This document shows, one piece after another, positions 3,688 through 62,535 of a stretch of 64,000 nucleotides of DNA. The notes below the pieces were generated by a model. The model ran no database searches, had not been told where the DNA came from, and was given only the letters and a program-made list of their open reading frames with translations. The stretch comes from Anatilimnocola floriformis (GTDB lineage: Bacteria > Planctomycetota > Planctomycetia > Pirellulales > Pirellulaceae). Location: assembly GCF_024256385.1 (NCBI RefSeq), contig NZ_JAMLFW010000001.1:5208001-5272000 (forward strand), read 5' to 3'. Position 1 is the first letter of the stretch; each line of letters begins with the position of its first letter. Made by a program: the position numbers and the translations under genes.

Positions 3688-4497
3688 ATGATTCACGTTC
3701 ACCGGCTCGCAAAGTCGTACGCCGATCTGCATCAAGGTCCGCGCGTGGCCCTGGGGGGCATTTCGTTTCAAGCGGCGGCGGGAGAAATCTTCGGCCTGCT
3801 CGGTCCCAATGGCGCGGGAAAGACCACCGCGCTGCGCATCCTGGCGACCATCCTGCAGCCGACTTCCGGGACGGCGACGGTCAACGGATATGACGTACAC
3901 ACGCAGCCCGCGCTAGTTCGCCGACAGATCGGCGTGGTGAGCTGCAACACGGCCATCTACGATCGCATGACCGCTTGGGAAATGGTCGAGTATTTCGGCC
4001 GACTTTATGGTCTGCCTGCCGATGAACTGCGCGACCGCATGACGCAGCTGTTCGAACGGCTGCAGATGAAAGAAATTCGCGACACGCTCGGCGCGAAGAT
4101 GTCGACGGGCATGAAGCAAAAGGTCTCGATCGCGCGAGCCCTGGTACACGATCCGCCGGTGCTGATCTTTGATGAAGCCACCGCTGGTCTCGATGTGTTG
4201 GTCGCGCGGGCGTTGCTCACGACGGTTGGTCAATTGCGTGATCTCGGCAAGTGCATCATTTTTTCGACACACATCATGCGTGAAGCCGAACGGCTGTGCG
4301 ATCGCCTGGCGATCATGCACCGCGGCCAGATTCTGGCGCATGGAACTTTGCCGGAACTCGCCGACAAATACAACGAAAAAGATCTGGAAGAGTTGTTCTT
4401 CCGCCTGATCAGCGAACAAAGCGAATCGACCGCGACCTTGCTAACCATGTCGCCTACCAGCGCCCTCACTGCAGCCACCACCACGAGTCACGCATGA
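3688..4497 (+). CDS. natA: NatA-type ABC transporter ATP-binding protein
   Basis: 269 residues. Walker [10 protein letters not shown] lies at about 39-47, the signature is [14 protein letters not shown] (the STGMKQK variant typical of NatA/ABC-2 exporters instead of LSGGQ), followed by the Walker [12 protein letters not shown] and the switch histidine in STHIM. I start it at ATG 3688 ([11 protein letters not shown]), where ABC homology begins; an upstream in-frame ATG at 3568 would add 40 residues with no domain character. Its TGA overlaps the ATG of the following permease gene (ATGA), so the two are translationally coupled and very likely form one exporter. NatAB in Bacillus extrudes sodium, but the substrate here cannot be told from sequence. 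Confidence 0.9.
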
Positions 4498-6740
4498 GCT
4501 GGACCAATACCAAGCTGATTTATTTGCGCGAATTGCGCGACCAGCTGCGCGATCGGCGAACGCTGTTCACCATCGTCATCTTGCCGCTGCTGATGTATCC
4601 GCTGCTGGCGATGGTGTGGTGCCAGATGCAGCAGTTCCTGAAGGAACGGCCATCGAAAGTGCTGATCGTGGGGGCAGAGCATCTGCCCGCCGAACCAGCC
4701 TTGCTCAAGGAAGCCATCTTTTCGTCGATCATCTGCACCGAAATGGAAAACGGGCTGCTACAGCTCGAGACCAAGAGCAAATTCGATAAGCTGCCTGCGA
4801 GCGACGTGAAATCAACCGCCGAGCGCGAGATCGCGGCGCGGCTGTATGACCTCGTCGTCTATTTCCCGCCGGACTTCGCCGCCAACCTGGATCGCTTCCG
4901 ACAAGAGAAGAACAAAGTCGGTGAAAAGAATCTGCAAGTCGCCGATCTCGATCAGGCGCCGCAGCCGGAGATTTTTGTCGACTCGGCCAGTGACAGTTCG
5001 CGCGTGGCCATGTCGCGAGTCGATTTGATCTTGCGCCGTTGGCGCGAGACGCTGGTTCAACAAAACTTAATTCAAAGCGACATTCCCCTCGGCGTAGCGC
5101 GGCCGTTCGAAGTGGTCAATACCGATATTGCCGAGACGTTTCGACGACGAGCAGCGCTCTGGTCAAAGGTTCTGCCGTTTGTCGTGCTGATTTGGGCATT
5201 GACCGGCGCGTTCTATCCCGCAGTCGATTTGTGTGCCGGTGAAAAAGAACGAGGTACGCTCGAAACTTTGCTCGTCAGCCCCGCGATGCGGAGCGAAATC
5301 GTCTGGGGAAAACTACTGACGGTCACTACGTTCAGCATGGCGACCAGTTTGCTCAACCTGGCTTGCATGGGATTGACCGGTTCGCTGTTTTTCATGCAGA
5401 TGGCCCAGCAGTCGTCGATGATGCTCGACCTGGGACCGCCGCCGCTCGCTTCGCTTTGCTGGCTGGCCGTCGCGGTGGTACCGATCTCGGCGCTCTTTAG
5501 CGCGCTGGCCCTGGCGATTGCCGCGTTCGCGCGCAGCACCAAGGAAGGTCAGTATTATTTGATGCCGCTACTGCTCATCAGTTTGCCGCTGATGGTGCTG
5601 CCGCTGCTGCCGCAGGTTCGACTCGACTTGGGTTTCAGCTTGATTCCCGTGACCGGCATGATGCTGCTCCTGCGAGCGCTCATGGAAGGCCAATATTTCG
5701 AAGCGCTTCGTTACGCACCGTTCGTGCTCGGCGTGACCGGACTGTGCTGCTGGTTGGCGATTCGTTGGGCCGTGCATCAGTTCAACAGCGAATCGGTGTT
5801 GTTCCGCGAGAGCGAACGCTTTGGCGTGGGCTTGTGGCTGCGGCATTTAATTCGAGACCGCGGCGACATGCCGTCGCCGACCGAAGCCATTGCTTGCGGC
5901 ATTTTGCTGCTGGTGATCCGCTTTGTGGCGAGCTTCACCATTCCGATGCCGACCGGTTTCTCGCACTTCGTGATGACGACGGTCGTCGTGCAGATCGCGC
6001 TCATCGCTACGCCCGCCTGCTTGATGGCGATCATGCTCACTCGCAAACCGCGACAGACGCTCCTCTTGCAAGCCCCGTCGTTCTGGTTGACCTTGCCGGC
6101 CGCGGCTGCACTGGCCGTGCTACTGCATCCGACCTTGATGTTCTTGGCGACCGGCATTCGCGAGATCTATCCGCTCAGCAACGAAACGCTCCGTGCTCTC
6201 GCCCCGTTTGAAGTGATGTTGCGAGAAGCCACGTTGCCGCAACTGCTGTTGCTCGTCGCGGTGACGCCGGCGATCTGCGAGGAACTTGCTTTCCGCGGCT
6301 TTATTCTCTCCGGTCTGCGGCGACTGGGTCACAAGTGGACCGCGATCGTAATTTGCAGCGTGATCTTCGGCGTCGCGCATGGACTGCTGCAGCAATCGAT
6401 TGCTGCGACGATCGTTGGCATTGTGATTGGCTATATCGCGGTCAAGACGAATAGCCTGTTGCCGGCGATGGCTTATCACCTGGTGCATAATTCGCTGGGG
6501 GTGCTCATCGGGCGCGTCGACGCCGAGTTGATCGCCAATTGGCCGATCTTGGATGCCGTACTGTTGCTGAGTCCGGACGGCGGCGTCGAGTATCGCTGGA
6601 ATGCGATGGTGATTGCCGGGCTGTGCGGCGCACTCGTGCTGCTGTGGATCAAACGGCTGCCGTATCATCCGTGCGCGGAAGAACGCCTGCAGACCGCACT
6701 CGCTCAGCAAACACCGCTGCTGCGGCCGGCTACGACTTAG
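4494..6740 (+). CDS. ABC-2 permease fused to CPBP (CAAX-type) intramembrane metalloprotease
   Basis: 748 residues. The N-terminal two thirds is a NatB-like ABC-2 permease: a first membrane segment near 22-44, a long extracytoplasmic loop, then the hallmark [15 protein letters not shown] near 250 and several further membrane helices. The C-terminal third is a CPBP/Abi domain: EELAFRG near 593, FGVAHG near 628 and HLVHNS near 661, matching the EExxxR, H and HxxxN-type motifs of glutamic-type intramembrane proteases such as Rce1. I use ATG 4494 because it overlaps the natA stop; the frame is open further upstream but only as an antisense-quality extension. Its last 4 bases overlap the end of the convergent gene. 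The fusion suggests export coupled to membrane proteolysis, which is inference. Confidence 0.88.
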
Positions 6741-18719: not shown

Positions 18720-19742
18720 GTGTTTGCGTCTGACCATCCCCGCCCAGACAGGAAATGGATTCCAGTGCTGAGTGACCGCCAGTCTTTTGTTGCCTTGCAT
18801 TTGCGGTGGTTCATTGCCGCAATCCTGGCGACGGCGGGGGCGATCGCCTGGTACGCGCTGGAAGCGGCCGGCGGACTCCGCTGGCCCGGCGGCAGCTCGT
18901 TGGTTGGGCTGACGTATGGAATCGTGGCGGCAGGCATTATTCTCTTTGAATGCCTGCTCGGCCTGCGGCGAACTAGCTTCTTTCGCACCTCACGCTGGCT
19001 TGGCTCGGCGAAGTTTTGGATGAAGGCCCACATCTGGCTCGGGTTGCTCGCGGTGCCGCTGGTGCTCATGCACACGGGCTTTCACTGGGGTGGCTGGTTG
19101 TCGACCTTGGTGGCCGGGGCGTTTGCCTTAGTCACGGCCAGCGGCATTTTCGGTTGGTACATGCAAAACCTAATTCCTCGCTGGCTGATCGAAGCTGTAC
19201 CGGAGGAAACAATTCATTCGCAAATCGATGCCGTCGCTGCTCAACTGTGTGCGGATGCTCGGCGAGCCGTCGGATTGCATGCGCCGCTCGCTGATGGCCA
19301 CGAATTATCTTTTAAAGATTCGCGTCGAACTGGGAAGTTGATCATGGCTGGTGCGCCGCGTCGCGTGGGCACGATGGTCGAGCGCACGCCGCGGCCCAAA
19401 CAGGAAGCAACGCAGGAACTCGCAATTCCGCAACTGCTGCGCGATGCCGTCGAGCAGGACATCGAGCCCTATCTGCTGACTGGCAAGAGCCCCGATCGTG
19501 GTTTGCACACGACGCATCGCGGCGTGTGGTATTTCGAAGAAATTCGCCGGCGCATCAATGACCGCGAGTTGCAAACCGTGGTCAGTACGCTCGCCCAGCT
19601 GTGCGAAAGACGGAGACAGATGAATACGCAGCAAGTGTTGCACTTCTGGCTGCACAGTTGGCTGTCGCTGCACTTGCCGCTGGCGATGATGCTGTTGATT
19701 TTGCTCGCCGCGCACGTGTGGTTTGCCCTGCGTTACAGTTAA
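18720..19742 (+). CDS. Membrane cytochrome b-type protein of the electron-transfer operon
   Basis: 340 residues. About five membrane helices are visible: 26-50, 62-82, 104-120, 125-147 and 310-338. Histidines placed to bind heme sit in or next to helices: H104, H118 and H122 in the middle pair, and H308, H312, H318 and H332 around the last helix, so a di-heme b-type cytochrome resembling ferric-reductase-like or b561-type proteins is probable. A soluble loop of about 150 residues separates the helices. Start is GTG 18720; GTG 18765, with AGGAAA ahead of it, is an alternative. It is the first gene of a five-gene operon (next start 6 bp away). Probable role: electron transfer between the quinone pool or Fe-S subunit and the multiheme cytochromes. 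Confidence 0.75.
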   Translation: MFASDHPRPDRKWIPVLSDRQSFVALHLRWFIAAILATAGAIAWYALEAAGGLRWPGGSSLVGLTYGIVAAGIILFECLLGLRRTSFFRTSRWLGSAKFWMKAHIWLGLLAVPLVLMHTGFHWGGWLSTLVAGAFALVTASGIFGWYMQNLIPRWLIEAVPEETIHSQIDAVAAQLCADARRAVGLHAPLADGHELSFKDSRRTGKLIMAGAPRRVGTMVERTPRPKQEATQELAIPQLLRDAVEQDIEPYLLTGKSPDRGLHTTHRGVWYFEEIRRRINDRELQTVVSTLAQLCERRRQMNTQQVLHFWLHSWLSLHLPLAMMLLILLAAHVWFALRYS

Positions 19743-19748
19743 GCAGTC

Positions 19749-21233
19749 ATGATGACGACCCATTCACCAACGCCCGAATCGAGCAAGCAGCGCGCACTTC
19801 GGATCGTGCTCGACTACCATCGTCGCGGCGATCGACTGGTCCGCTCGAAGTATTTTTGGACATTCATCGGCACACTCGTCGCGCTCGCTTACGTTGCCTG
19901 GCTGTTTGTCGGCGGCACAAGCGCGCAGCAACAACTTTCGCCCGGTTCGCTGGCGGCGGTCCATTCGTCGCTGAATTCTGATTGCGCGAAGTGTCATCAG
20001 AATTTCAAACCACTGAGCGCCGATGCCAGCGGCTCGCGGATGTTGCTCGCCGCCTTTCATGAAACGCATCCAGCGAAAGTCAGCTGCCGCGATTGTCATC
20101 CTCAGCAAACCGATTTGCCGCATCATCCCAACCAGTTGTCCACCGATGAGATGAGCTGCGCTGCCTGCCACGTCGATCACCAAGGGAGCGGTGCTCAACT
20201 CGCCCGGCCAGCTGATCGCACTTGTACGGTGTGTCACGAAGATATGGCCAGCCATCGTACGCGTTCGCAGTTCGAGCCGGCCCTGCAAAGCGTCGCTCAA
20301 TTTGCCCGCCTCGCGCCCGAACAATTTGCTCATCCCGGTTTTCGCTCGCTGCCTGCCGAAGACAAGAACGATTTCAAATTCAACCACCAGCTTCACCTGC
20401 TCCCCGGCCAATGGCCTAAGGACGGCAAGCCCGAAGGAGCCTGGAAACTCGGCCAGATTCCCGCCGAGTTGCGCGAGCAATTCAAAACCAGTCCCGATCA
20501 ATCGCTCGATTCACTGGTGCAGCTCGATTGCAGCTCCTGCCACGTCACGGCGACAACCGATTCTGGCGCGTACATGTTGCCGGTCAATTTTGAGCGGCAT
20601 TGCCAGGCCTGCCATTCGCTGACCGTGGCAAAGACCTTGGGCGGAAATACCCAAACCTGGAACATCCGGCATGGCTTGAAACAGCTCGAACTGCGCGACG
20701 TGCTGCTCGGCATATCGGCCTCGGTCGAAAAACAAGATTCCAGCGCAACGAAGCTCTCGCCAAATTCGCCGCTTGGTCCACCGCTGCCGGTTCCTGGCAG
20801 GACGCCGGGGTTCAATCTTGCGCAACAGCTAGGCGATCCTGGCCAAGTCGATGCGTGGCAAAAAAGCTTGTTTCGCGAACAATGCTTGAAGTGCCACACC
20901 GACGCTTCAGCCCTATCAGCGAAGGAAGCCGAGCCGATCGATTTCCTCAAGCCGCGGATTCCCGAACGCTGGTTCACGCACGGCGCTTTCAATCACCGCA
21001 CGCACGAAGCCTGGGCCAATTGCCGCGATTGCCATGCGGGAGCTTACGCTACCGATGCCACCGGCAAACCACCGATTGATGACCAGCGCGTTCTCGTGCC
21101 GAACATCGACAACTGCGTGCAGTGTCACGCGTCCAAAAGTACGCACGAAAAATTCAAAGCCACCGCGCGCTTCGATTGCGCAGAGTGCCATCGCTATCAC
21201 CCGACGGGAGCGCAACCGCATGTCGCTCCATAA
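19749..21233 (+). CDS. Membrane-anchored ten-heme cytochrome c
   Basis: 494 residues with one N-terminal membrane anchor (about 36-58, WTFIGTLVALAYVAWLFVGG). Ten CxxCH heme-binding motifs can be counted: CAKCH, CRDCH, CAACH, CTVCH, CSSCH, CQACH, CLKCH, CRDCH, CVQCH and CAECH, with many extra histidines as distal ligands (e.g. CAACHVDHQ). No enzyme family signature beyond multiheme cytochrome c is recognisable. The protein should sit on the outer face of the cytoplasmic membrane. It starts 6 bp after the cytochrome b gene and its end overlaps the next gene by 14 bp, pointing to a tightly coupled complex. It could be an electron conduit or a terminal reductase. Confidence 0.88.
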   Translation: MMTTHSPTPESSKQRALRIVLDYHRRGDRLVRSKYFWTFIGTLVALAYVAWLFVGGTSAQQQLSPGSLAAVHSSLNSDCAKCHQNFKPLSADASGSRMLLAAFHETHPAKVSCRDCHPQQTDLPHHPNQLSTDEMSCAACHVDHQGSGAQLARPADRTCTVCHEDMASHRTRSQFEPALQSVAQFARLAPEQFAHPGFRSLPAEDKNDFKFNHQLHLLPGQWPKDGKPEGAWKLGQIPAELREQFKTSPDQSLDSLVQLDCSSCHVTATTDSGAYMLPVNFERHCQACHSLTVAKTLGGNTQTWNIRHGLKQLELRDVLLGISASVEKQDSSATKLSPNSPLGPPLPVPGRTPGFNLAQQLGDPGQVDAWQKSLFREQCLKCHTDASALSAKEAEPIDFLKPRIPERWFTHGAFNHRTHEAWANCRDCHAGAYATDATGKPPIDDQRVLVPNIDNCVQCHASKSTHEKFKATARFDCAECHRYHPTGAQPHVAP

Positions 21234-22575
21234 CCGCTTGCTGCTCGTATTTCTGGCCGTTGTCGTCGCTGGCTGCAAACCAGCCGTACCCGCGGCGAGC
21301 GTTTATCAACTCACCAACGTCGTCGAGTCGGTAGAAAACAGAGCAACTGCACCAGCCGACGTTCATTTCGTCGGCCGCAATTCCTGTTCGGCCACGGCCT
21401 GCCATGGCCAACCGCAAGCCGAATCGATCAACTGGCGAAACGCTCATCAAGCGTTCGAAGCCAACGATCCTCACCGACGGGCCTTCGATGTGCTCTACAC
21501 CGCGCGCTCGGTGCGGATGTATCGCTTGCTGGCCGAGGATGAGGCGAAAACGATCGACGATGGAGTTTACCTGCGGTTCCTCGAGAAGAATTGCGTCGGC
21601 TGCCACGCTACGCCGCCGCAGGGAATGCCAGCCAATGGTGCATTCGCTCCGCAACCGAGCCCGGAAGTTTACTGGCAAGGCGTGTCGTGCGAATCGTGCC
21701 ACGGCCCGGCCAGTCGTTGGCTGGGAACACACTATTCTCTCTCGTGGCCAGAGAATGCCACCGCACGAACCCACCAAGCGGCGAATGGCTTTCAGGACAC
21801 GCGCAACTTAGATTCGCGCGCCGCGGTCTGCCTCAACTGTCATCAGGGACCTCGCCAACTGGGCGAGGAAACGTACGACGTCAATCACGATCTAATCGCA
21901 GCCGGGCATCCGCGTTTGAAATTCGAACTCCACTCCTACCTGGCCAACTTGCCCAAGCATTGGAGCGAAGCTCAAGAACTGCAGCGGCAACAAGCTGCCG
22001 ATTCTCAACTAGCGGCGGCCTTCCACTTCAACACCTGGCGGGCAGGGCAGAACCAATCCGCGGCCCGCGAACAGCAGCTGCGAGAGTTCCGCACGAAGAA
22101 ATCCGCTGATGGACTCAGCGGCTGGGCCGAGTTTGCCAATCACGATTGCCGTCATTGTCATCATCTGACTGCCGAACACACTTTTCGTTTGACGCATAAC
22201 GAACCGAGTGCCCGACCCGATCTCTTTAAAAATGTTTCACTCACGCCGACACCAGCCGAGCGGGCCGGAGTGCTGCTGAAGCATCTGGACCAAAGTCGTA
22301 AACCGCAAAGCACCGCTCTGTTGCCGAGCAGCGATCAAGGTGTCGACATTTATCTCGCAGCCGCTGCGTTCGCTCGCGATTTTCCGCAAGAGCCGCCGTT
22401 CACTGACCTGACTCGTTTGCAGTGGCTCCTCGCGCAACAAGCAGGCAAAACTCAATACGACCTGCCGACCAATTTCGATCCAGAACAACCCGAACTGAGA
22501 CAAGCCTTGAACGATTTGCAACAAGCTCTCGAGCGATTGGCCCAGCCGAATCGTAACGGGAGTCGCCGACCATGA
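21220..22575 (+). CDS. Cytochrome c554-like multiheme lipoprotein
   Basis: 451 residues from ATG 21220 (MSLHNRLLLVFLAVVVAGC). The N-terminus is a lipoprotein signal with lipobox VAGC, so the protein is membrane-tethered. Four CxxCH motifs are seen (CVGCH, CESCH, CLNCH, CRHCH) plus an unusual CSATACH near residue 55, which would be a CX4CH heme site in the place where c554-type cytochromes start their heme series. Conserved flanks such as SCESCHGPA resemble the cytochrome c554/c' family. It overlaps the ten-heme gene by 14 bp and the NuoEF fusion by 4 bp (ATGA). Likely the distal cytochrome of the chain; substrate unknown. Confidence 0.85.
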   Translation: MSLHNRLLLVFLAVVVAGCKPAVPAASVYQLTNVVESVENRATAPADVHFVGRNSCSATACHGQPQAESINWRNAHQAFEANDPHRRAFDVLYTARSVRMYRLLAEDEAKTIDDGVYLRFLEKNCVGCHATPPQGMPANGAFAPQPSPEVYWQGVSCESCHGPASRWLGTHYSLSWPENATARTHQAANGFQDTRNLDSRAAVCLNCHQGPRQLGEETYDVNHDLIAAGHPRLKFELHSYLANLPKHWSEAQELQRQQAADSQLAAAFHFNTWRAGQNQSAAREQQLREFRTKKSADGLSGWAEFANHDCRHCHHLTAEHTFRLTHNEPSARPDLFKNVSLTPTPAERAGVLLKHLDQSRKPQSTALLPSSDQGVDIYLAAAAFARDFPQEPPFTDLTRLQWLLAQQAGKTQYDLPTNFDPEQPELRQALNDLQQALERLAQPNRNGSRRP

Positions 22576-24488: not shown

Positions 24489-27101
24489 ATGCCGGCCAAA
24501 CTGTTTGTCGACGAAATCGCGCGGGCCTGGGAAGAGGAAGGTCTCTTCGCGCGCGACTTGAATGGCCAGCTGATTCGCGCCGAAGAAGCGACTGCGAAAC
24601 AGTACAGTGAGTTTGTCACGATGACGATCGACGGCCAGTCGATCTCGGTGCCGCGAGCGACTCCCGCCGTCGATTCGCAAGGGAATATTATTTTTCTCGA
24701 TGCCTCGGGGCGAACGCAGCCGCGGGCGACGACGATTCTCGATGCCCGCAATGCACTTCGCCGGCAGACGGAAAACAAACCTGAAGCCTGCGAACATTTC
24801 ATTCCGACACTTTGCCACTTGCCGCACTTGCAGCCCGCTGGCGTGTGTCGCGTTTGCTCGGTCGCCGTGGGCAGAAAGGACTCGACCGGTCGGATCACGG
24901 TACAGGACAAACTTGTGCCAGCCTGCATGCAGCCGGTGCAGCCAGGAATGCAGATTTTCACGCTCGATGCGCCAAGCGAGGCAGCTGATCCTGAAGACAA
25001 ATCGCACGAAGTGGCGCAGGCCGCGCGGAATCGCGTGCGCGCGAATGTCAAAACGCTCATGGAGCTGCTCTCAGCCGACCATCTGCCTACGCAGCCACCT
25101 GTCGCCGCCGATTCCGATGCGGCGAGCGATTTGGAAAAGCTCCTTGCTCGGCTGCAAGCGAAAGGGATGCAAGTGCAGCGGAGTCGGCTCGCGACACGCG
25201 CTGCTTCGCCTGCGCCGGTAGTGGCCAGCGACACTTCTTCGCCGCTCATTCAAGTCAATCACGAGGCGTGCATCCTGTGCGATCGCTGCGTCCGCTCCTG
25301 CAGCGACATCAAGCAGAACTTTGTCATCGGCCGCACCGGCAAGGGTTACATCACGCAGATCGGTTTTGATCTCGATCAACCGATGGGCGAATCGACCTGC
25401 GTGGAGTGCGGCGAGTGTGCGCTGAATTGCCCGACGACCGCGCTGACCATCACCAAGCCGCCGGAAGAACCCGAGTGGTGGCTGGAGCAAGTCGGCGGCG
25501 TGAACAGCGTGACGAAGCAGAAGTTCCGCGGCCATCCGGGCAAAACAGCCGTCACGCCGGAGTCGCTCGCCGCGCATCGTTACTTCGGCCAGCTCAGCTA
25601 TCGGCAGCGGCAGTGGTTTCAGTACTCGATTGTGCGCTGGGAACTGAAACCGGGCGAGGAGCTTTGCCGCCGCGGCGACTACGGCTTTACGGCGTTTCTG
25701 CTGGAGAGCGGGCAGTTTGAAGGCTGGCGCTCCGATCCGCGCGAAGCACTGACGGAAACAACGAAAACGGGCGGCATTTTCAGTTGGCTCGGTCTTTCCT
25801 CAAGGACGCCCAAGATGCCGACGGCGGCGGAGTTGGGCAAACCCCATTTCGAATGCGGCGCTGAGGCGATCATCCTGGGCGAAATGACCCTCATCAGCCA
25901 TCAAGCCCGCACGGCGACGCTGCGGGCCAAGACGCCTTGCGTGGTGTATGAAATTCGTCGCAACGTGCTCTATGCGCTGCAGCGGCATCCGTATGTCCGC
26001 GAGGAACTCGACAAGGTGTATCGAGCTCGCGCGCTGCGTGATGTGCTGGAGTTTGTCGAAAATCGTTCGGCGCGAAATCTCAAGCATCGCCTCTTCGGCG
26101 AACTCGGCGCTGAGGACCTGGAGAAATGCCGCCGCTTTCTGGAAACGGCCAGCCAAACGCCCATTTCGGCGACCAATCCCAAACGGCAGGTCGATTTGAT
26201 TCGCGTCGAACCCGATCAGGTGATTTGCCGGCAAGATGAACTTGCCGAGGATTTTTACATCATCCGCATCGGTCACGTGAAAGTGACGCAAACGATCGCT
26301 GGCGAGGAGCGGGTCATCGATTACTTCCGGCCGAAGCATTCCTTCGGAGAAATTTCCTGCGTCGCCGATTGGGACGATCTGCAGTCAGAATTGCAACTGC
26401 AAGCCGGCGCGAGTCGACGCACGGCGACGTGTACGGCGCTGGATGACGTCGAGCTCATTCGCATCGATAAGCAGGTCTTTCGGCAACTGCTCGTGCAAGT
26501 GCCGGCTCTCTGCACCATCGTGCTCGCGCGAGCGAAACAGTTGCAATCGGCAGCACCAGTTCAACCTGCGGCACAAAAGCCGACGACGAACAGCCCGATT
26601 TTGCGTGAGTTCACCGAGCAGGGACTTTACAACGCGCAGCGGTTGCTGGTGCTCGATCTCGAAGCCTGCACGCGCTGCGACGAATGCACAAAAGCCTGTG
26701 CCGACACGCACGGCGGCGTGACGCGGTTGATCCGCGAAGGACTGCGGTTTGATAAGTGGTTGGTCGCCAGTTCCTGTCGGTCGTGTACTGATCCGTATTG
26801 CCTGGTTGGCTGTCCGGTCGATGCGATTCACCGCAGCGGCGAACGACTCGAAATTCAAATTGAAAAGCACTGCATCGGCTGCGGGTTGTGCGCGAACAAT
26901 TGCCCGTACGGCAACATCAACATGCACGAGGAGCAAGCCGGGCCGATCTTGTCGCACACAGCGACGACGTGCGATCTGTGCCACAAAATCGTGGGACCGA
27001 ACGAAGACGTCAGTTGCGTCTTCGCGTGTCCGCACAATGCTGCGTTCCGCATGAGCGGACCGCAGTTGCTCGGAAAAATCGAAGGGTACCGGGCGGTTTA
27101 G
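24489..27101 (+). CDS. NuoG-like / double cNMP-binding / DmsB-like iron-sulfur fusion protein
   Basis: 870 residues with an uncommon order of domains. About 75-160: NuoG/HoxU-type [2Fe-2S] site (C109, C120, C123, C146). About 255-320: two [4Fe-4S] sites (C261-C264-C267-C271 and C304-C307-C310-C314). About 375-510 and 550-680: two cyclic-nucleotide-binding domains, each with a phosphate-cassette core (GEMTLISHQARTATL; FGEIS...SRRTATC), the first with an insertion rich in Thr/Lys. About 715-855: a DmsB/HycB-type subunit with four more cysteine quartets (727-737, 763-775, 795-805, 828-847). No molybdopterin domain follows the NuoG part. It is the last gene of the operon, 6 bp after the NuoEF fusion, and is the natural electron acceptor of that module. 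Confidence 0.88.
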   Translation: MPAKLFVDEIARAWEEEGLFARDLNGQLIRAEEATAKQYSEFVTMTIDGQSISVPRATPAVDSQGNIIFLDASGRTQPRATTILDARNALRRQTENKPEACEHFIPTLCHLPHLQPAGVCRVCSVAVGRKDSTGRITVQDKLVPACMQPVQPGMQIFTLDAPSEAADPEDKSHEVAQAARNRVRANVKTLMELLSADHLPTQPPVAADSDAASDLEKLLARLQAKGMQVQRSRLATRAASPAPVVASDTSSPLIQVNHEACILCDRCVRSCSDIKQNFVIGRTGKGYITQIGFDLDQPMGESTCVECGECALNCPTTALTITKPPEEPEWWLEQVGGVNSVTKQKFRGHPGKTAVTPESLAAHRYFGQLSYRQRQWFQYSIVRWELKPGEELCRRGDYGFTAFLLESGQFEGWRSDPREALTETTKTGGIFSWLGLSSRTPKMPTAAELGKPHFECGAEAIILGEMTLISHQARTATLRAKTPCVVYEIRRNVLYALQRHPYVREELDKVYRARALRDVLEFVENRSARNLKHRLFGELGAEDLEKCRRFLETASQTPISATNPKRQVDLIRVEPDQVICRQDELAEDFYIIRIGHVKVTQTIAGEERVIDYFRPKHSFGEISCVADWDDLQSELQLQAGASRRTATCTALDDVELIRIDKQVFRQLLVQVPALCTIVLARAKQLQSAAPVQPAAQKPTTNSPILREFTEQGLYNAQRLLVLDLEACTRCDECTKACADTHGGVTRLIREGLRFDKWLVASSCRSCTDPYCLVGCPVDAIHRSGERLEIQIEKHCIGCGLCANNCPYGNINMHEEQAGPILSHTATTCDLCHKIVGPNEDVSCVFACPHNAAFRMSGPQLLGKIEGYRAV

Positions 27102-58224: not shown

Positions 58225-58575
58225 ACAAGCTTGTGCAGTGATACCAGCAAAAGGTGATTCACGACTTGTGATTCACCAAGGGCTCAGCGGCAGCGTCAGT
58301 TTAGCGCCGATCGCCGAGTCGCTTCAACGGGAATTGCGATCGTAACATGACGTCAGCCCCGCTCCGGCCTTTACTTCGGCCTGATCTCTACCCGCTAGAC
58401 CAAGTGGACTCCTGTTTTCTACGATAGGGGATTGGCCTGTGGGTTGCTCCTTTACCGCTGCGTGGTCGATGGCGGCAGTGGTTTTTCCCCAAGGGCCAAA
58501 TTTAAGGACGTTATTTCGGCCGTAATTGGCTGCTGGGGCTGTGGTTACGTAATTGGTACGGATGGGAGTGGGCGA
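58225..58575. other. Divergent intergenic region with inverted repeat
   Basis: 351 bases between the small membrane protein gene and the 1319-residue gene, which are divergently transcribed, so both promoters should be here. The region includes the inverted repeat listed at 58253. The frame of the large gene is open back to 58432, but those 48 residues look unlike protein and ATG 58576 has a purine-rich leader (GGGAGTGGGCGA). A tRNA-like patch near 58380 fails the T-arm test. Confidence 0.45.
58253..58277. promoter_or_regulatory. Candidate operator: 10-bp repeat around 5-base spacer
   Basis: GGTGATTCAC (58253-58262), GACTT, GTGATTCACC (58268-58277). The arms form an inverted repeat at 9 of 10 positions and at the same time contain the direct repeat GTGATTCAC. 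It lies 29 bases upstream of the small membrane protein start. A dimeric regulator could bind; no regulator was matched. Confidence 0.35.
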
Positions 58576-61500
58576 ATGGGAGGACGAGAAACCGAAGCCG
58601 GGCGAGTGGCCCTGGACAAGGTCCTCGGGTACCTCAACTTTTCGTCGGGAGCGTCGGATCCCCAGTTTTTGGCTGGCTTGAGCCAGCTATTTGAGGAGGC
58701 CGATCACCGCTCACTGGGGGAAGAGACTTGGATCCGTCTGTATGAATGGTTGACGGTCGAGTTGCAGTCGCGAGTGGGCACCAATCCGGCCTTTCAGGAC
58801 GTGCAGCAAGCCCAGGCTGTGCTGGAACTTACGTTCGAAAAGCTGCTGCTCGCCTATCGCGACTTCCACCGCGATTTGTTGTTCCACCAAACGGCAGAGT
58901 CGCTGTTTCAGCCCTATTTTCTGGGCCGGGCCCTGGAAGCGGTTTTGCGGCAAGGGGCACCGTGGGAAGAATCGGACCGGATTGTTTCGACGGCGATCAA
59001 ACAGCTGAGCGACTACATCGGTCATCGGCCAGTCGCGGCGCTTGAGTCGCAGCGTATCGAACCGTATCCGCACGAATTCTGCCGACCGGTGCCGCTGTAC
59101 ATTCGCGGCGCGGGCGTGGCCTATGGCCCGCAGCGCGAAGTCGTCGCACTCGCACTGAAGTTGCTCGAAACGACCGACGAAAACCTGCTGCGGCAGGCCT
59201 GCTTTTTTCCGCATCGGTTGGAAGAACTTGCCATCGATCCACGAGCTTATGACTTCGATCACCCGGCCAACAAGCGGCCGAACTACCACTTCGGCCAGTG
59301 GGATCCGCACCAGATCGATCAGCACGGTTTTTACCGTCGGTTTGTCGTGCAGCAGATCACGCTCGACGCGCTGATGCGGCGGCTGACCGAAGACACGACG
59401 ATCCCGCAAGAAGAATTGAAATTCGAAGCCGCCGCCGTGCTCGCGGGCACCGTGCTGATGGCCTCGGGCATCAGCGGCGAAGGACCGGGTGCGCACGATT
59501 CGACGATCACGCTGGCCAAGCTCCTGCCGCGGATTGCCAAGTATCGTGATGCGTTCTACGAGCAGTTGCTGCAGCGAACGAGCGGCGAACATCTCGAGCG
59601 ATTGAAAAACGAAGCCGCCCAAAAACGCCAGCCATTCGGTGGCGCTCGGCAACATCTCAATGCCCAATTGGCTCGCGCGCGGGCTTCGCAACTCGAGCAT
59701 GTTCACTTGGCGCGGATTTTTGCTCGGCTTGGTCATGTCGAGGCTGCCGCCAAGCAAGCCAACGTGGTGCCCTGTGCATCAGCCCGCATGCTCTGTCAGA
59801 TCGACTGCTTGCTGACAACTTGTCAGCTGGCGTGTGCGGCTGGCAAGCTCGATGCCGCCGCCGACATCATGCCGCAGATCATCGATCTGCTGAAACGGGC
59901 GATTCAATGCGGCGCGGTGATCGATCCTTGGAACATCCTTGGCTTCGATGCTCACTTCAGTTTGTTCCCCGCCCTCGAAAACAGCGTGCGTGATCATCGG
60001 GCGGATGAGTTGGTCGCGCTCATGGAGCGGATCTGGACGTTGTATTCGCTCGTGTGGAGCGAAGCGGCTGCCAGCAATCGGTCGGAGATTGCCGACCGAA
60101 TTTCGCGGCAATTCAAAAAGACCGCGACTTGGTGGCATCAATTCGCGACGCACGAAGTTTCGACCGTCGAAGCCATCGATTCACTCGCCATGTTCCGCGC
60201 CGCTGAACGAGTCGCCAAGGCCTTGCAAGTGTGGCACGGAGGTGGCGCATCGAGCGGCGACGTCGGTTTTTGGGCGCCGCACGCCGAGATGTTTGATTCG
60301 CCGAAGGCCTATGCGATGGTCATCGACTCGTTGCTCGAGCGCGGCGATTCGATTGCCTCGATGGCCCTAATGATGAGTTGGCTCAGCCGGGCCGATTCGG
60401 TTGGCCTTGAGCACGGCGATTCGTCGTTCCACGATTTAGCTCAAAGGTGGGTAACGGCCACAACGGCTGCCAGCGCAGAATCGCCCGAAGCAGCGCTGAA
60501 GGCTTGGGACTCGGCTCGCAAGTTTCTCGATTATCTCGAAGCGAACGCCGAAGGTTTGTGGAACGTGCCGACCTTCGAACTGGGCAACGGCAAACGGCCC
60601 GCATCGGCCACCGCCGAGCAGGACGACGACGAGGACGAAGACCGTTTCGACTCGGCCTACGAGGACATGGTCTATCGCGACAGCACCGACGACGGCGTTG
60701 ATGGAGCCATTTTTGAATCGGGCGACGATACGCACGACGAGATGCAGCATCAGTCGAAGCTCGTCGCCGATCGCCTGGCCTTTCTCGCGACCGTGGCTCG
60801 GTTGTGGAAGCAGACGATCGTTAGTCCGGCCTTTGCCGTGATCATCAAGCAGCAAGCCACGCCCGAACAAAGTGCGCCGCAGCAGCGGCGCACGGCGGCG
60901 ATGCAGAAGTGGATCGAGCAAGCGCAGACCAATCTGAACGGCCTTGATCGCTTGCTCGCGCAAGTTCGCGATTTTCGCATTCCCACGCCCTCGGGCGATC
61001 ACGATTCGATGGTCGAGTACGACCGTCGGCGGATGATTAAAGAATCGCTGCTCGAACGCGTGGTCGCCACCAGCGTGGAGATGGCCGATGCGGCGCGACT
61101 GCTCCTCGCAGCCCGTGCAGCCTTGCAGCCCGGACAGCCGATTGAAAAAGACGAAGAAGAAAACCAGCGGACCGTAGCCGTCTTCACCGCTCTACTCAAG
61201 CGCGATGAAGTCGCGGTCAAGGAAGCCTGCGAACTGCTGTTCAAAACGCTGCTCCGCCAGCCATTGCTCTACGTGCCGCTCGGCAAGGGTGGCAATCCAC
61301 TCGAGATCGTCATCGTTCGCACCCGTCAGCATTCCATTCAAGATCTGCTGGCCTGGTTGCCGCGCTGCGGCTTGTGGATCGAGACGTGCCAGCTCCTCGA
61401 CGTCGCCCGGCAGATGGAACGCGATCATCCCGTTGGTCCCGGCGCGGTGACAGAGTTCGATGAGCTCTTCAAAATCGGTTACAAGGGAATCGTCGAAAGC

Positions 61501-62535
61501 CTCGTCGTTTCGGCCCAATCGTGGCCGCGCATTCCAGGCACGACCGACGATCAAGCCGCGGAACCGCTCGTCGCTTGTCTCGAACAATTGACCGAGAGCA
61601 TGCTCACCAGCTGGCTCGCGCACAGTCGCACGCTGCGGCTGAGCGTGCTCGAGCGCGTGCACGACAAGACGACCTGGAAGAAGGTCATCGCCTTCGTCGA
61701 GAAATACGGCGCCGATCTGTTTACGCAGCGATTTTTGAATCTCAGCAACATCCGCGCAATCATTCATCAGGGACCGGCTCGCTGGCTGAAGAGCCTGCAG
61801 GAAGAACCCGCCGACGATGCGCCGCAAAAACTGCTCGATGATCTAACCACCGAGAAGGCTCTCGAAGATAATGCCGAGATGCTGAACATCGTGCTGGAAG
61901 CGATTCTCGAAAACTACGGCGAGTATCGCGACTACAACAGCACGACCACGCAATCAGACCGCGGCGAGCTGCTGTATATGTTGCTCGATTTTCTGCGGCT
62001 GCGCACGCGCTATGATCGCGTCTGTTGGAATCTCAAGCCCGTTGTGCTCGCGCACGAAATCCTCGTTCGCCGTGGCGAAGACATTGCGGCCCGAGTTTGG
62101 CGGCGCGCTCTTTCGGAGCGGATCCAGGACGAAGCCGAGCAATATCTAACTCGACTGGCCGATCTGCAGAAGAAATATGCGATGCGAATGCCGACCGTCG
62201 CCGATCGTCTGGCCGAACGTTTTGTGCGGCCGCTGACGATCGATCGAATTCGTGCGCTCGTCGAATCGGCCATGGAAGAAGCCCGCCAAGGTGGCGACGC
62301 GCCGAAGTTTGCCATGCTGGAATTCGAAACCGCGACGCTCACGCGCGAGCCCACCGGCGTCGGCTTGGATGTGCCCGCCTGGTTGGTGGCGCTCGAAGAA
62401 GAAGTCGACGAGATTTTGCGTCCCACGCATGAACGGCAAGAAGAAGCCGATCTCGCTGCCATCCTGCCGCCGGTGCTTCTCACGATCGAGCAAGCCAAGC
62501 AGCAGCTCGATCAGTGGACAACGAAGGAAGAGTAG
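58576..62535 (+). CDS. Very large soluble protein of unknown function
   Basis: 1319 residues from ATG 58576 (MGGRETEAGRVALDKV). The protein is almost wholly helical by inspection, without signal peptide, membrane helix or any enzyme motif I know. It contains a strongly acidic low-complexity patch near residues 680-730 (EQDDDEDEDRFDS, later DDGVDGAIFESGDDT) separating two helical halves. The C-terminus has paired helices typical of scaffold proteins. No operon partner: the gene stands between a divergent membrane protein gene and a convergent ankyrin gene 6 bp away. Such long, uncharacterised cytoplasmic proteins are a planctomycete feature. Confidence 0.75.
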   Translation: MGGRETEAGRVALDKVLGYLNFSSGASDPQFLAGLSQLFEEADHRSLGEETWIRLYEWLTVELQSRVGTNPAFQDVQQAQAVLELTFEKLLLAYRDFHRDLLFHQTAESLFQPYFLGRALEAVLRQGAPWEESDRIVSTAIKQLSDYIGHRPVAALESQRIEPYPHEFCRPVPLYIRGAGVAYGPQREVVALALKLLETTDENLLRQACFFPHRLEELAIDPRAYDFDHPANKRPNYHFGQWDPHQIDQHGFYRRFVVQQITLDALMRRLTEDTTIPQEELKFEAAAVLAGTVLMASGISGEGPGAHDSTITLAKLLPRIAKYRDAFYEQLLQRTSGEHLERLKNEAAQKRQPFGGARQHLNAQLARARASQLEHVHLARIFARLGHVEAAAKQANVVPCASARMLCQIDCLLTTCQLACAAGKLDAAADIMPQIIDLLKRAIQCGAVIDPWNILGFDAHFSLFPALENSVRDHRADELVALMERIWTLYSLVWSEAAASNRSEIADRISRQFKKTATWWHQFATHEVSTVEAIDSLAMFRAAERVAKALQVWHGGGASSGDVGFWAPHAEMFDSPKAYAMVIDSLLERGDSIASMALMMSWLSRADSVGLEHGDSSFHDLAQRWVTATTAASAESPEAALKAWDSARKFLDYLEANAEGLWNVPTFELGNGKRPASATAEQDDDEDEDRFDSAYEDMVYRDSTDDGVDGAIFESGDDTHDEMQHQSKLVADRLAFLATVARLWKQTIVSPAFAVIIKQQATPEQSAPQQRRTAAMQKWIEQAQTNLNGLDRLLAQVRDFRIPTPSGDHDSMVEYDRRRMIKESLLERVVATSVEMADAARLLLAARAALQPGQPIEKDEEENQRTVAVFTALLKRDEVAVKEACELLFKTLLRQPLLYVPLGKGGNPLEIVIVRTRQHSIQDLLAWLPRCGLWIETCQLLDVARQMERDHPVGPGAVTEFDELFKIGYKGIVESLVVSAQSWPRIPGTTDDQAAEPLVACLEQLTESMLTSWLAHSRTLRLSVLERVHDKTTWKKVIAFVEKYGADLFTQRFLNLSNIRAIIHQGPARWLKSLQEEPADDAPQKLLDDLTTEKALEDNAEMLNIVLEAILENYGEYRDYNSTTTQSDRGELLYMLLDFLRLRTRYDRVCWNLKPVVLAHEILVRRGEDIAARVWRRALSERIQDEAEQYLTRLADLQKKYAMRMPTVADRLAERFVRPLTIDRIRALVESAMEEARQGGDAPKFAMLEFETATLTREPTGVGLDVPAWLVALEEEVDEILRPTHERQEEADLAAILPPVLLTIEQAKQQLDQWTTKEE

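Follow-up and report, generated by a model that had tools for sequence, protein, structure and literature searches.

An 870-residue iron-sulfur protein of the planctomycete Anatilimnocola floriformis, called here the wire, carries a pair of cyclic-nucleotide-binding (CNB) domains in the middle of its polypeptide, and its gene stands in an operon with three cytochromes and a NuoE-NuoF fusion. The wire is probably the cytoplasmic iron-sulfur part of a conduit leading electrons from NADH to the periplasm, in which the CNB pair would bind cAMP or cGMP and gate either the passage of electrons or the docking of the protein. NuoE-NuoF would accept hydride from NADH and pass electrons to the [2Fe-2S] cluster and two [4Fe-4S] clusters of the wire, from which they would move through four HycB-type clusters to a di-haem membrane cytochrome b and on to a periplasmic decahaem cytochrome, an order modelled on that of homologous complexes. 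The CNB pair, which lies between the two cluster groups, would receive a 3',5'-cyclic nucleotide supplied, at least in part, by class III cyclases such as the one encoded next door here, and binding would re-orient the modules as in the regulatory subunits of PKA and PKG, opening or closing the wire or its docking. The window referred to below is the whole stretch of 64,000 nucleotides that was analysed (contig NZ_JAMLFW010000001.1, positions 5,208,001 to 5,272,000), and positions in Table 1 are counted from its first letter.

Table 1. Features of the window that belong to the putative conduit, its wire protein and the adjacent cyclase.
Feature	Positions	Strand	Evidence and remarks
Class III nucleotide cyclase, 618 aa	16721..18577	-	Guanylate_cyc E 2e-20; divergent from operon, 142 bases between
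Membrane cytochrome b-type protein	18720..19742	+	Weak DUF4405/Ferric_reduct match below cut-off; 5 hydrophobic segments
Decahaem c7-type cytochrome	19749..21233	+	Cytochrome_C7 (Pfam); one N-terminal hydrophobic segment; 10 CxxCH in 44/54 rows
Tetrahaem c554-type cytochrome	21220..22575	+	Cytochrome_C554; lipoprotein-like signal; 4 CxxCH in 44/48 rows
NuoE-NuoF fusion (NADH/FMN subunit), 636 aa	22572..24482	+	2Fe-2S_thioredx, Complex1_51K, SLBB, NADH_4Fe-4S
CNB Fe-S wire protein	24489..27101	+	ATG start, 870 aa; single full-length copy in the window's genome
[2Fe-2S] region of wire, residues 103-158	24795..24962	+	Fer2_4 (Pfam); C109, C120, C123, C146, Cys in 89/89 rows
Two-[4Fe-4S] region of NuoG/HoxU-like module, residues 255-320	25251..25448	+	Fer4_9/Fer4_10; Cys in 89/89 rows
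CNB1, residues about 365-525	25581..26063	+	Pfam fragment match; phosphate cassette 25878-25928 (464-480)
CNB2, residues about 541-690	26109..26558	+	Pfam fragment match; phosphate cassette 26346-26441 (620-651)
HycB/DmsB-type four-[4Fe-4S] module, residues 719-856	26643..27056	+	16 Cys (C727-C847), 88-89/89 rows

Elsewhere in the window, positions 58432-62535 (+) hold a candidate ORF of 1367 aa without a Pfam match at E 1, and positions 4296-6740 (+) encode an 814-aa ABC-2-type membrane protein fused to a CAAX-protease (Rce1-like) domain.

The whole wire matches cNMP_binding in Pfam (E 5e-29), with Fer2_4 at residues 103-158 and Fer4-type matches at about 255-320 and 759-855; besides this protein, the window's genome has three weak partial matches. 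The [4Fe-4S]-type sets of the N-terminal part are C261/264/267/271 and C304/307/310/314. All 28 ligand cysteines are conserved, each in 88 or 89 of the 89 aligned rows, and their motifs point to a cofactor set of one [2Fe-2S] and six [4Fe-4S] clusters. The domain order and the cluster count proposed in the earlier note, which was made from the letters of the window, are borne out by Pfam and by these cysteine sets. The 89 rows consist of the window protein, eight type-A proteins from the genome search and the best 80 of 317 relatives, and they represent 88 distinct loci; L076 and L077 are near copies, and L019 and L054-L056 (the same loci as L078, L079, L081, and L084), L057, and the truncated L070 were omitted. 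Several ORFs, such as L088, L089, L092, L109, and L139, are overlong at the N end, since each ORF was taken from its earliest possible start.

The closest sequence neighbours of the N-terminal module are the N-terminal parts of NAD-linked hydrogenases, formate dehydrogenases, and NuoG, and those of the C-terminal module are HycB/DmsB-type subunits. An AlphaFold model built with the window wire and 48 homologues (mean pLDDT 75.9, pTM 0.78) gave, in Foldseek against the PDB, two groups among the 50 matches listed: one of chains of HydA, formate dehydrogenase, and complex I (7t30_A, E 1.2e-12), the other of chains with tandem CNB domains, most of them from PKA or PKG (6rsx, 1.6e-12; 4z07, which is PKG I beta with cGMP, 3.3e-12). 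The earlier assignment of the N-terminal module to the NuoG type stands for the [2Fe-2S] and two-[4Fe-4S] sets and fails for the His-Cys3 site, which we take to be N5, as the NuoG pattern HxxxCxxCxxxxxC occurs in 0 of the 89 wire rows. The aligned His198 is retained in 71 of these rows, and the Pfam model of the His-Cys3 region matches 4 of 49 scanned wire members. No NCBIfam model of the NuoG, HoxU, HydA, or FdsA families reaches its cut-off among the 25 matches listed. Membership of NuoG is rejected: the [2Fe-2S] ligands are present (89/89), but the His-Cys3 motif is absent, and so is a molybdopterin-type C-terminal domain (no Pfam match at E 0.1).

When fragments of the wire are run alone, residues 330-540 and 541-700 each match cNMP_binding above the curated cut-off (E 1.8e-12 and 1.6e-17, respectively). 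Predicted secondary structure places the strands of CNB1 at 381-489, with helices to 524, and CNB2 at 541-688, which agrees with the limits given in the earlier note (about 375-510 and 550-680). CNB domains are found by Pfam in 49 of the 49 scanned members. A chance or misread domain assignment is ruled out by Pfam, on the whole protein, on fragments and on these members, and by Foldseek. The phosphate cassettes are strongly conserved among the 89 rows, in CNB1 at Gly464 (89), Glu465 (87), Arg474 (89), and Ala476 (89), and in CNB2 at Gly620 (89), Glu621 (88), and Arg644 (87); in the window protein, roughly twelve extra residues lie within the CNB2 cassette. The canonical Glu and Arg are present in both pockets in 84 of the 89 rows, whereas the mean frequency of the top residue over positions 365-690 is only 0.50. 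The five rows without both pockets are L058, L096, L104, L107, and L120, with L058 and L107 being one locus. Decay of the pockets is therefore ruled out for the NADH-linked type. The earlier note had made nucleotide gating depend on residues 375-680 having a cNMP fold and on phosphate-pocket residues being kept across homologues, and both are found.

A broader alignment of 32 rows, which takes in proteins without the NuoG-like module, has the CNB1 Glu in all 32 and the CNB1 Arg in 31, and the CNB2 Glu in 26 and the CNB2 Arg in 25; the CNB2 cassette is gone altogether in one sub-group of six proteins, which counts against our reading. A second point that may speak against it concerns the β2-β3 Gly that, according to the text of PMC2246266, co-evolves with the cassette Arg and is tied to cAMP allostery. 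At the corresponding position, with the equivalence set by eye, CNB1 has Gly399 in 78 of the 89 rows, but CNB2 has mostly Ala (64, and Gly in 9). The same paper describes CNB folds with other ligands, and, with the six losses among 32 rows, this gives some credit to the idea that the CNB domains of the wire bind a ligand other than cAMP or cGMP, or serve as a ligand-free scaffold. Such a role is quite improbable, as the cassettes associated with other ligands in PMC2246266 are noncanonical ones, whereas both domains have the canonical cassette in 84 of 89 wire rows. Binding of cAMP or cGMP stays the preferred reading, and the sequence cannot decide between the two nucleotides: the residue after the pocket Arg is Ser in 61 and Thr in 17 of the 89 rows in CNB1, and Thr in 67 and Ser in 10 in CNB2, and at this position Table 1 of PMC2246266 lists Ala in PKA, Thr in PKG, and Ser in the general bacterial family.

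The operon consists of five genes on the + strand, separated by gaps or overlaps of at most 14 bases, the wire gene being the last. The earlier note had described the wire and missed both this operon and the cyclase next to it. In the membrane cytochrome b, His104, His118, His318, and His332 form two pairs with a spacing of 14 and are invariant in 52 of 52 and in 17 of 17 rows; by comparison with known di-haem cytochromes, we infer that they bind two b haems. Among 78 rows of NuoE-NuoF, the ligand cysteines are kept in 71-72 for NuoE and in all 78 for NuoF, and the ESEP motif in 73. A NuoEF gene is found at 77 of the best 80 of the 317 wire loci, an ORF with at least eight CxxCH motifs (any such ORF being counted as the decahaem cytochrome at these loci) at 52, cytochrome b at 51, and c554 at 47, on contigs many of which end early. 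For the 35 wire loci that are flanked by 7.5 kb or more on each side, these numbers are 34, 30, 30, and 26 for NuoEF, the ORF with at least eight CxxCH, cytochrome b, and c554, respectively. NuoEF is missing at L080 and L097, both with fewer than 640 bases upstream, and at L084, which has full flanks. The last of these, L084:8050-11451, is a stand-alone wire paralogue with neither NuoEF nor cytochrome b nearby, and counts against our reading.

The direction of flow might be the reverse of the one proposed, with the periplasmic cytochromes collecting electrons and the wire reducing NAD+. No terminal reductase is recognised by Pfam among the proteins of the operon, and modules of the NuoEF/wire kind are reversible in principle, both of which fit inward flow. 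We consider it unlikely, however, since haems usually have a higher potential than the NADH couple and outward flow would be downhill. The outward direction, from NADH to the periplasm, is the one kept in what follows.

The cyclase of the window has two metal-binding Asp residues and a catalytic Arg, roles that we assign to these positions by assumption. In an alignment of 22 cyclase rows, one of them truncated, all 21 readable rows near wires (the window's included) have, by eye, the second metal Asp, 20 have the first, and 19 have the Arg; the two Arg-less rows, L054 and L079, are one locus. The window cyclase has what is presumably the adenine-type Lys and lacks the usual Asp/Thr. No FHA domain is matched by Pfam in its N-terminal 150 residues. 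At L084, an FHA-carrying cyclase lies 34 bases from the wire on the same strand, and there Glu replaces the first metal Asp.

Linkage between cyclase and wire is above chance, yet it is found in a minority of loci, and the latter counts against our reading. Among 33 wire loci in 30 genomes (out of 34 carrier genomes), 9 have a PF00211 match within 10 kb against 0.47 expected (Poisson P 2e-9), and among the best 80 of 317 loci, a set that overlaps the first, 14 have a cyclase against 0.74 expected; these expectations assume independent loci, which those of related genomes are not. A second set of 15 further genomes, made of the remaining carriers G101, G122, G269, and G337 and of 11 found via cytochrome b, has a cyclase within 10 kb (distances taken by hand) in only two, G107 and G128, which are sister species. 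In G062 the cyclase is 17 kb from the wire but adjoins decahaem and cytochrome b genes. The wire of Roseiconus nitratireducens (L092) likewise has a cyclase as a neighbour. Anywhere in the genome, a class III cyclase is present in 30 of 30, 11 of 11, and 14 of 15 carriers, the exception being G269, which is 77% complete; it is also present in 5 of 14 named control genomes, carriers and these controls being the genomes compared.

With a 12-member alignment as query, tblastn (E up to 1e-3) located relatives of the wire at 317 sites of the genome collection. The best 80 of these share one layout, with matches starting at window residue 1-45 and ending at 835-870, and four CxxCxxCxxxC motifs are present in 80 of 80. 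By record titles, these 80 belong to Planctomycetota, plus Verrucomicrobiota for six. Cultured carriers include Rhodopirellula, Roseiconus, Neorhodopirellula, Rubripirellula, Tautonia, and Zavarzinella. A wire match of some architecture occurs in 12 of 60 sampled relatives (E 1e-40) and in 23 of 392 genomes of the phylum (E 1e-50), the window's own genome being counted. Hence, the layout is recurrent and no oddity. Two wires of 926-975 aa, L023:7869-10796 and L024:1413-4193, have long extra stretches inside CNB2 and among the HycB clusters.

The unit that recurs is smaller than the wire. A search with the cytochrome b alignment identified 27 genes in 24 of 149 genomes of the phylum (E 1e-15), two of the rows being pieces of one gene. 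Of these genes, 21 adjoin a CNB-HycB protein, such neighbours having been picked out with a profile covering both CNB and HycB, and CNB being confirmed by Pfam in the six scanned. Three others (G062 C117, G115, and G124) have no such neighbour, though their genomes carry one elsewhere, and the last three (L162, L164, and L165) lie beside a 23-haem and a 13- or 16-haem cytochrome. These last loci (L162:3846-8830, L164:6532-10531, and L165:5071-10626) share with the window a related membrane cytochrome b beside multihaem cytochromes, but no CNB protein was found there, and in the two scanned, L162 and L165, the iron-sulfur partner is a Fer4-Pyr_redox protein. This type of conduit therefore does not need a CNB protein, which counts against our reading, as do two cytochrome b loci of carrier genomes, L169 and L170, that have no wire nearby.

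In a tree of the CNB2-HycB part, whose 46 rows comprise 29 that have the NuoG-like module and 17 that lack it, the distribution of this module needs four changes, at least two of which are forced by starred branches, the tree being a quick and unrooted one. Type B, the class without the module, was called on the ORF itself, by its having fewer than four CxxCxxCxxxC motifs; an N-terminal module encoded separately in a neighbouring gene would count as absent. From the cytochrome b neighbourhoods and the tree together, the CNB pair goes with the HycB module and cytochrome b; on these sequences, the recurring unit is the CNB pair with the HycB-type module, and the NuoG-like NADH-input module comes and goes. 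Hence, insertion of the CNB pair between NuoG-like and DmsB-like modules, as had been supposed in the earlier note, is rejected as a history. Three CNB-HycB wires without the NuoG-like module, L154:4550-6565, L158:2781-5357, and L068:8553-10748, bear an FHA domain. The presence of FHA in some cores hints at phosphorylation-dependent control.

The recurrence of CNB-HycB beside cytochrome b, even where the same ORF has no NuoG-like module, means that control by the CNB pair may act at the interface between HycB module and cytochrome b. Nucleotide binding in the same conduit might then control assembly, oligomerisation, or docking to the membrane cytochrome and not transfer within the polypeptide, a reading that differs from ours solely in the site where control acts and that we hold to be unlikely. 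With the wire itself as the gated element, we tentatively suggest, at somewhat less than even confidence, a cyclic-nucleotide-gated conduit, in which a second messenger would bind the wire and act as an allosteric switch on NADH-to-periplasm flow, at the speed of signalling and with no need for transcription, and in which an old planctomycete core of CNB, HycB, cytochrome b, and multihaem cytochromes would have had varied input modules plugged onto it.

The best-known CNB effectors of bacteria are transcription factors and channels. With a CNB pair inside a multi-cluster wire, direct control of electron flow by a second messenger becomes testable with purified protein, and the conservation of the pockets across two phyla and the presence of cyclases nearby above chance are grounds for interest. 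The NADH-fed cytochrome conduit recurs in Planctomycetota, and its description was not found in the literature searched: no title or abstract start among the papers listed describes the fusion or the operon, in a coverage from which subscription papers are mostly missing, so that absence is no proof, and "cyclic nucleotide" does not occur in the passages of PMC12057145. CNB effectors have been described before, and so has one CNB-redox fusion, while the literature searched gave no account of a multi-cluster wire with CNB domains as part of a transmembrane conduit.

The wire shares parts with several known systems. With the N-terminal modules of NuoG, HoxU, HydA, and FdsA, it shares the Fer2 and two-[4Fe-4S] regions, the best sequence and fold matches, and a NuoE-NuoF partner, but it lacks the His-Cys3 motif and has CNB-CNB-HycB in place of the catalytic C-terminal domain. 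It has the 16 cysteines in four sets of the HycB/DmsB-type subunits, but the molybdopterin enzyme that partners them is absent by Pfam from the five proteins of the operon. The Bfu family of PMC9304861 (in whose main text "cyclic" and "cNMP" do not occur) resembles the wire system in its NuoF-like NADH/FMN subunit and its NuoG-like partner with variable added domains. Membership of this electron-bifurcating family is rejected, as the NuoEF of the window shows by Pfam only the NuoE and NuoF cluster domains; it has no Fer4 domain and therefore differs from the BfuBC core of FMN and six iron-sulfur clusters. The tandem CNBs of the PKA and PKG regulatory parts share their fold (Foldseek) and canonical phosphate cassettes with those of the wire, the effector being a kinase there and an electron wire here. 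The nearest printed precedent is the Bact_Pyrredox group of tandem-CNB pyridine-nucleotide oxidoreductases (PMC2246266, in whose main text neither "ferredoxin" nor "4Fe-4S" occurs), where tandem CNB domains are likewise fused to a bacterial redox protein. The N-terminal pyridine-nucleotide-disulphide oxidoreductase domain (Pyr_redox) required for membership of that group is absent from the wire (Pfam, E 0.1), which is instead a multi-cluster iron-sulfur protein encoded in a cytochrome operon.
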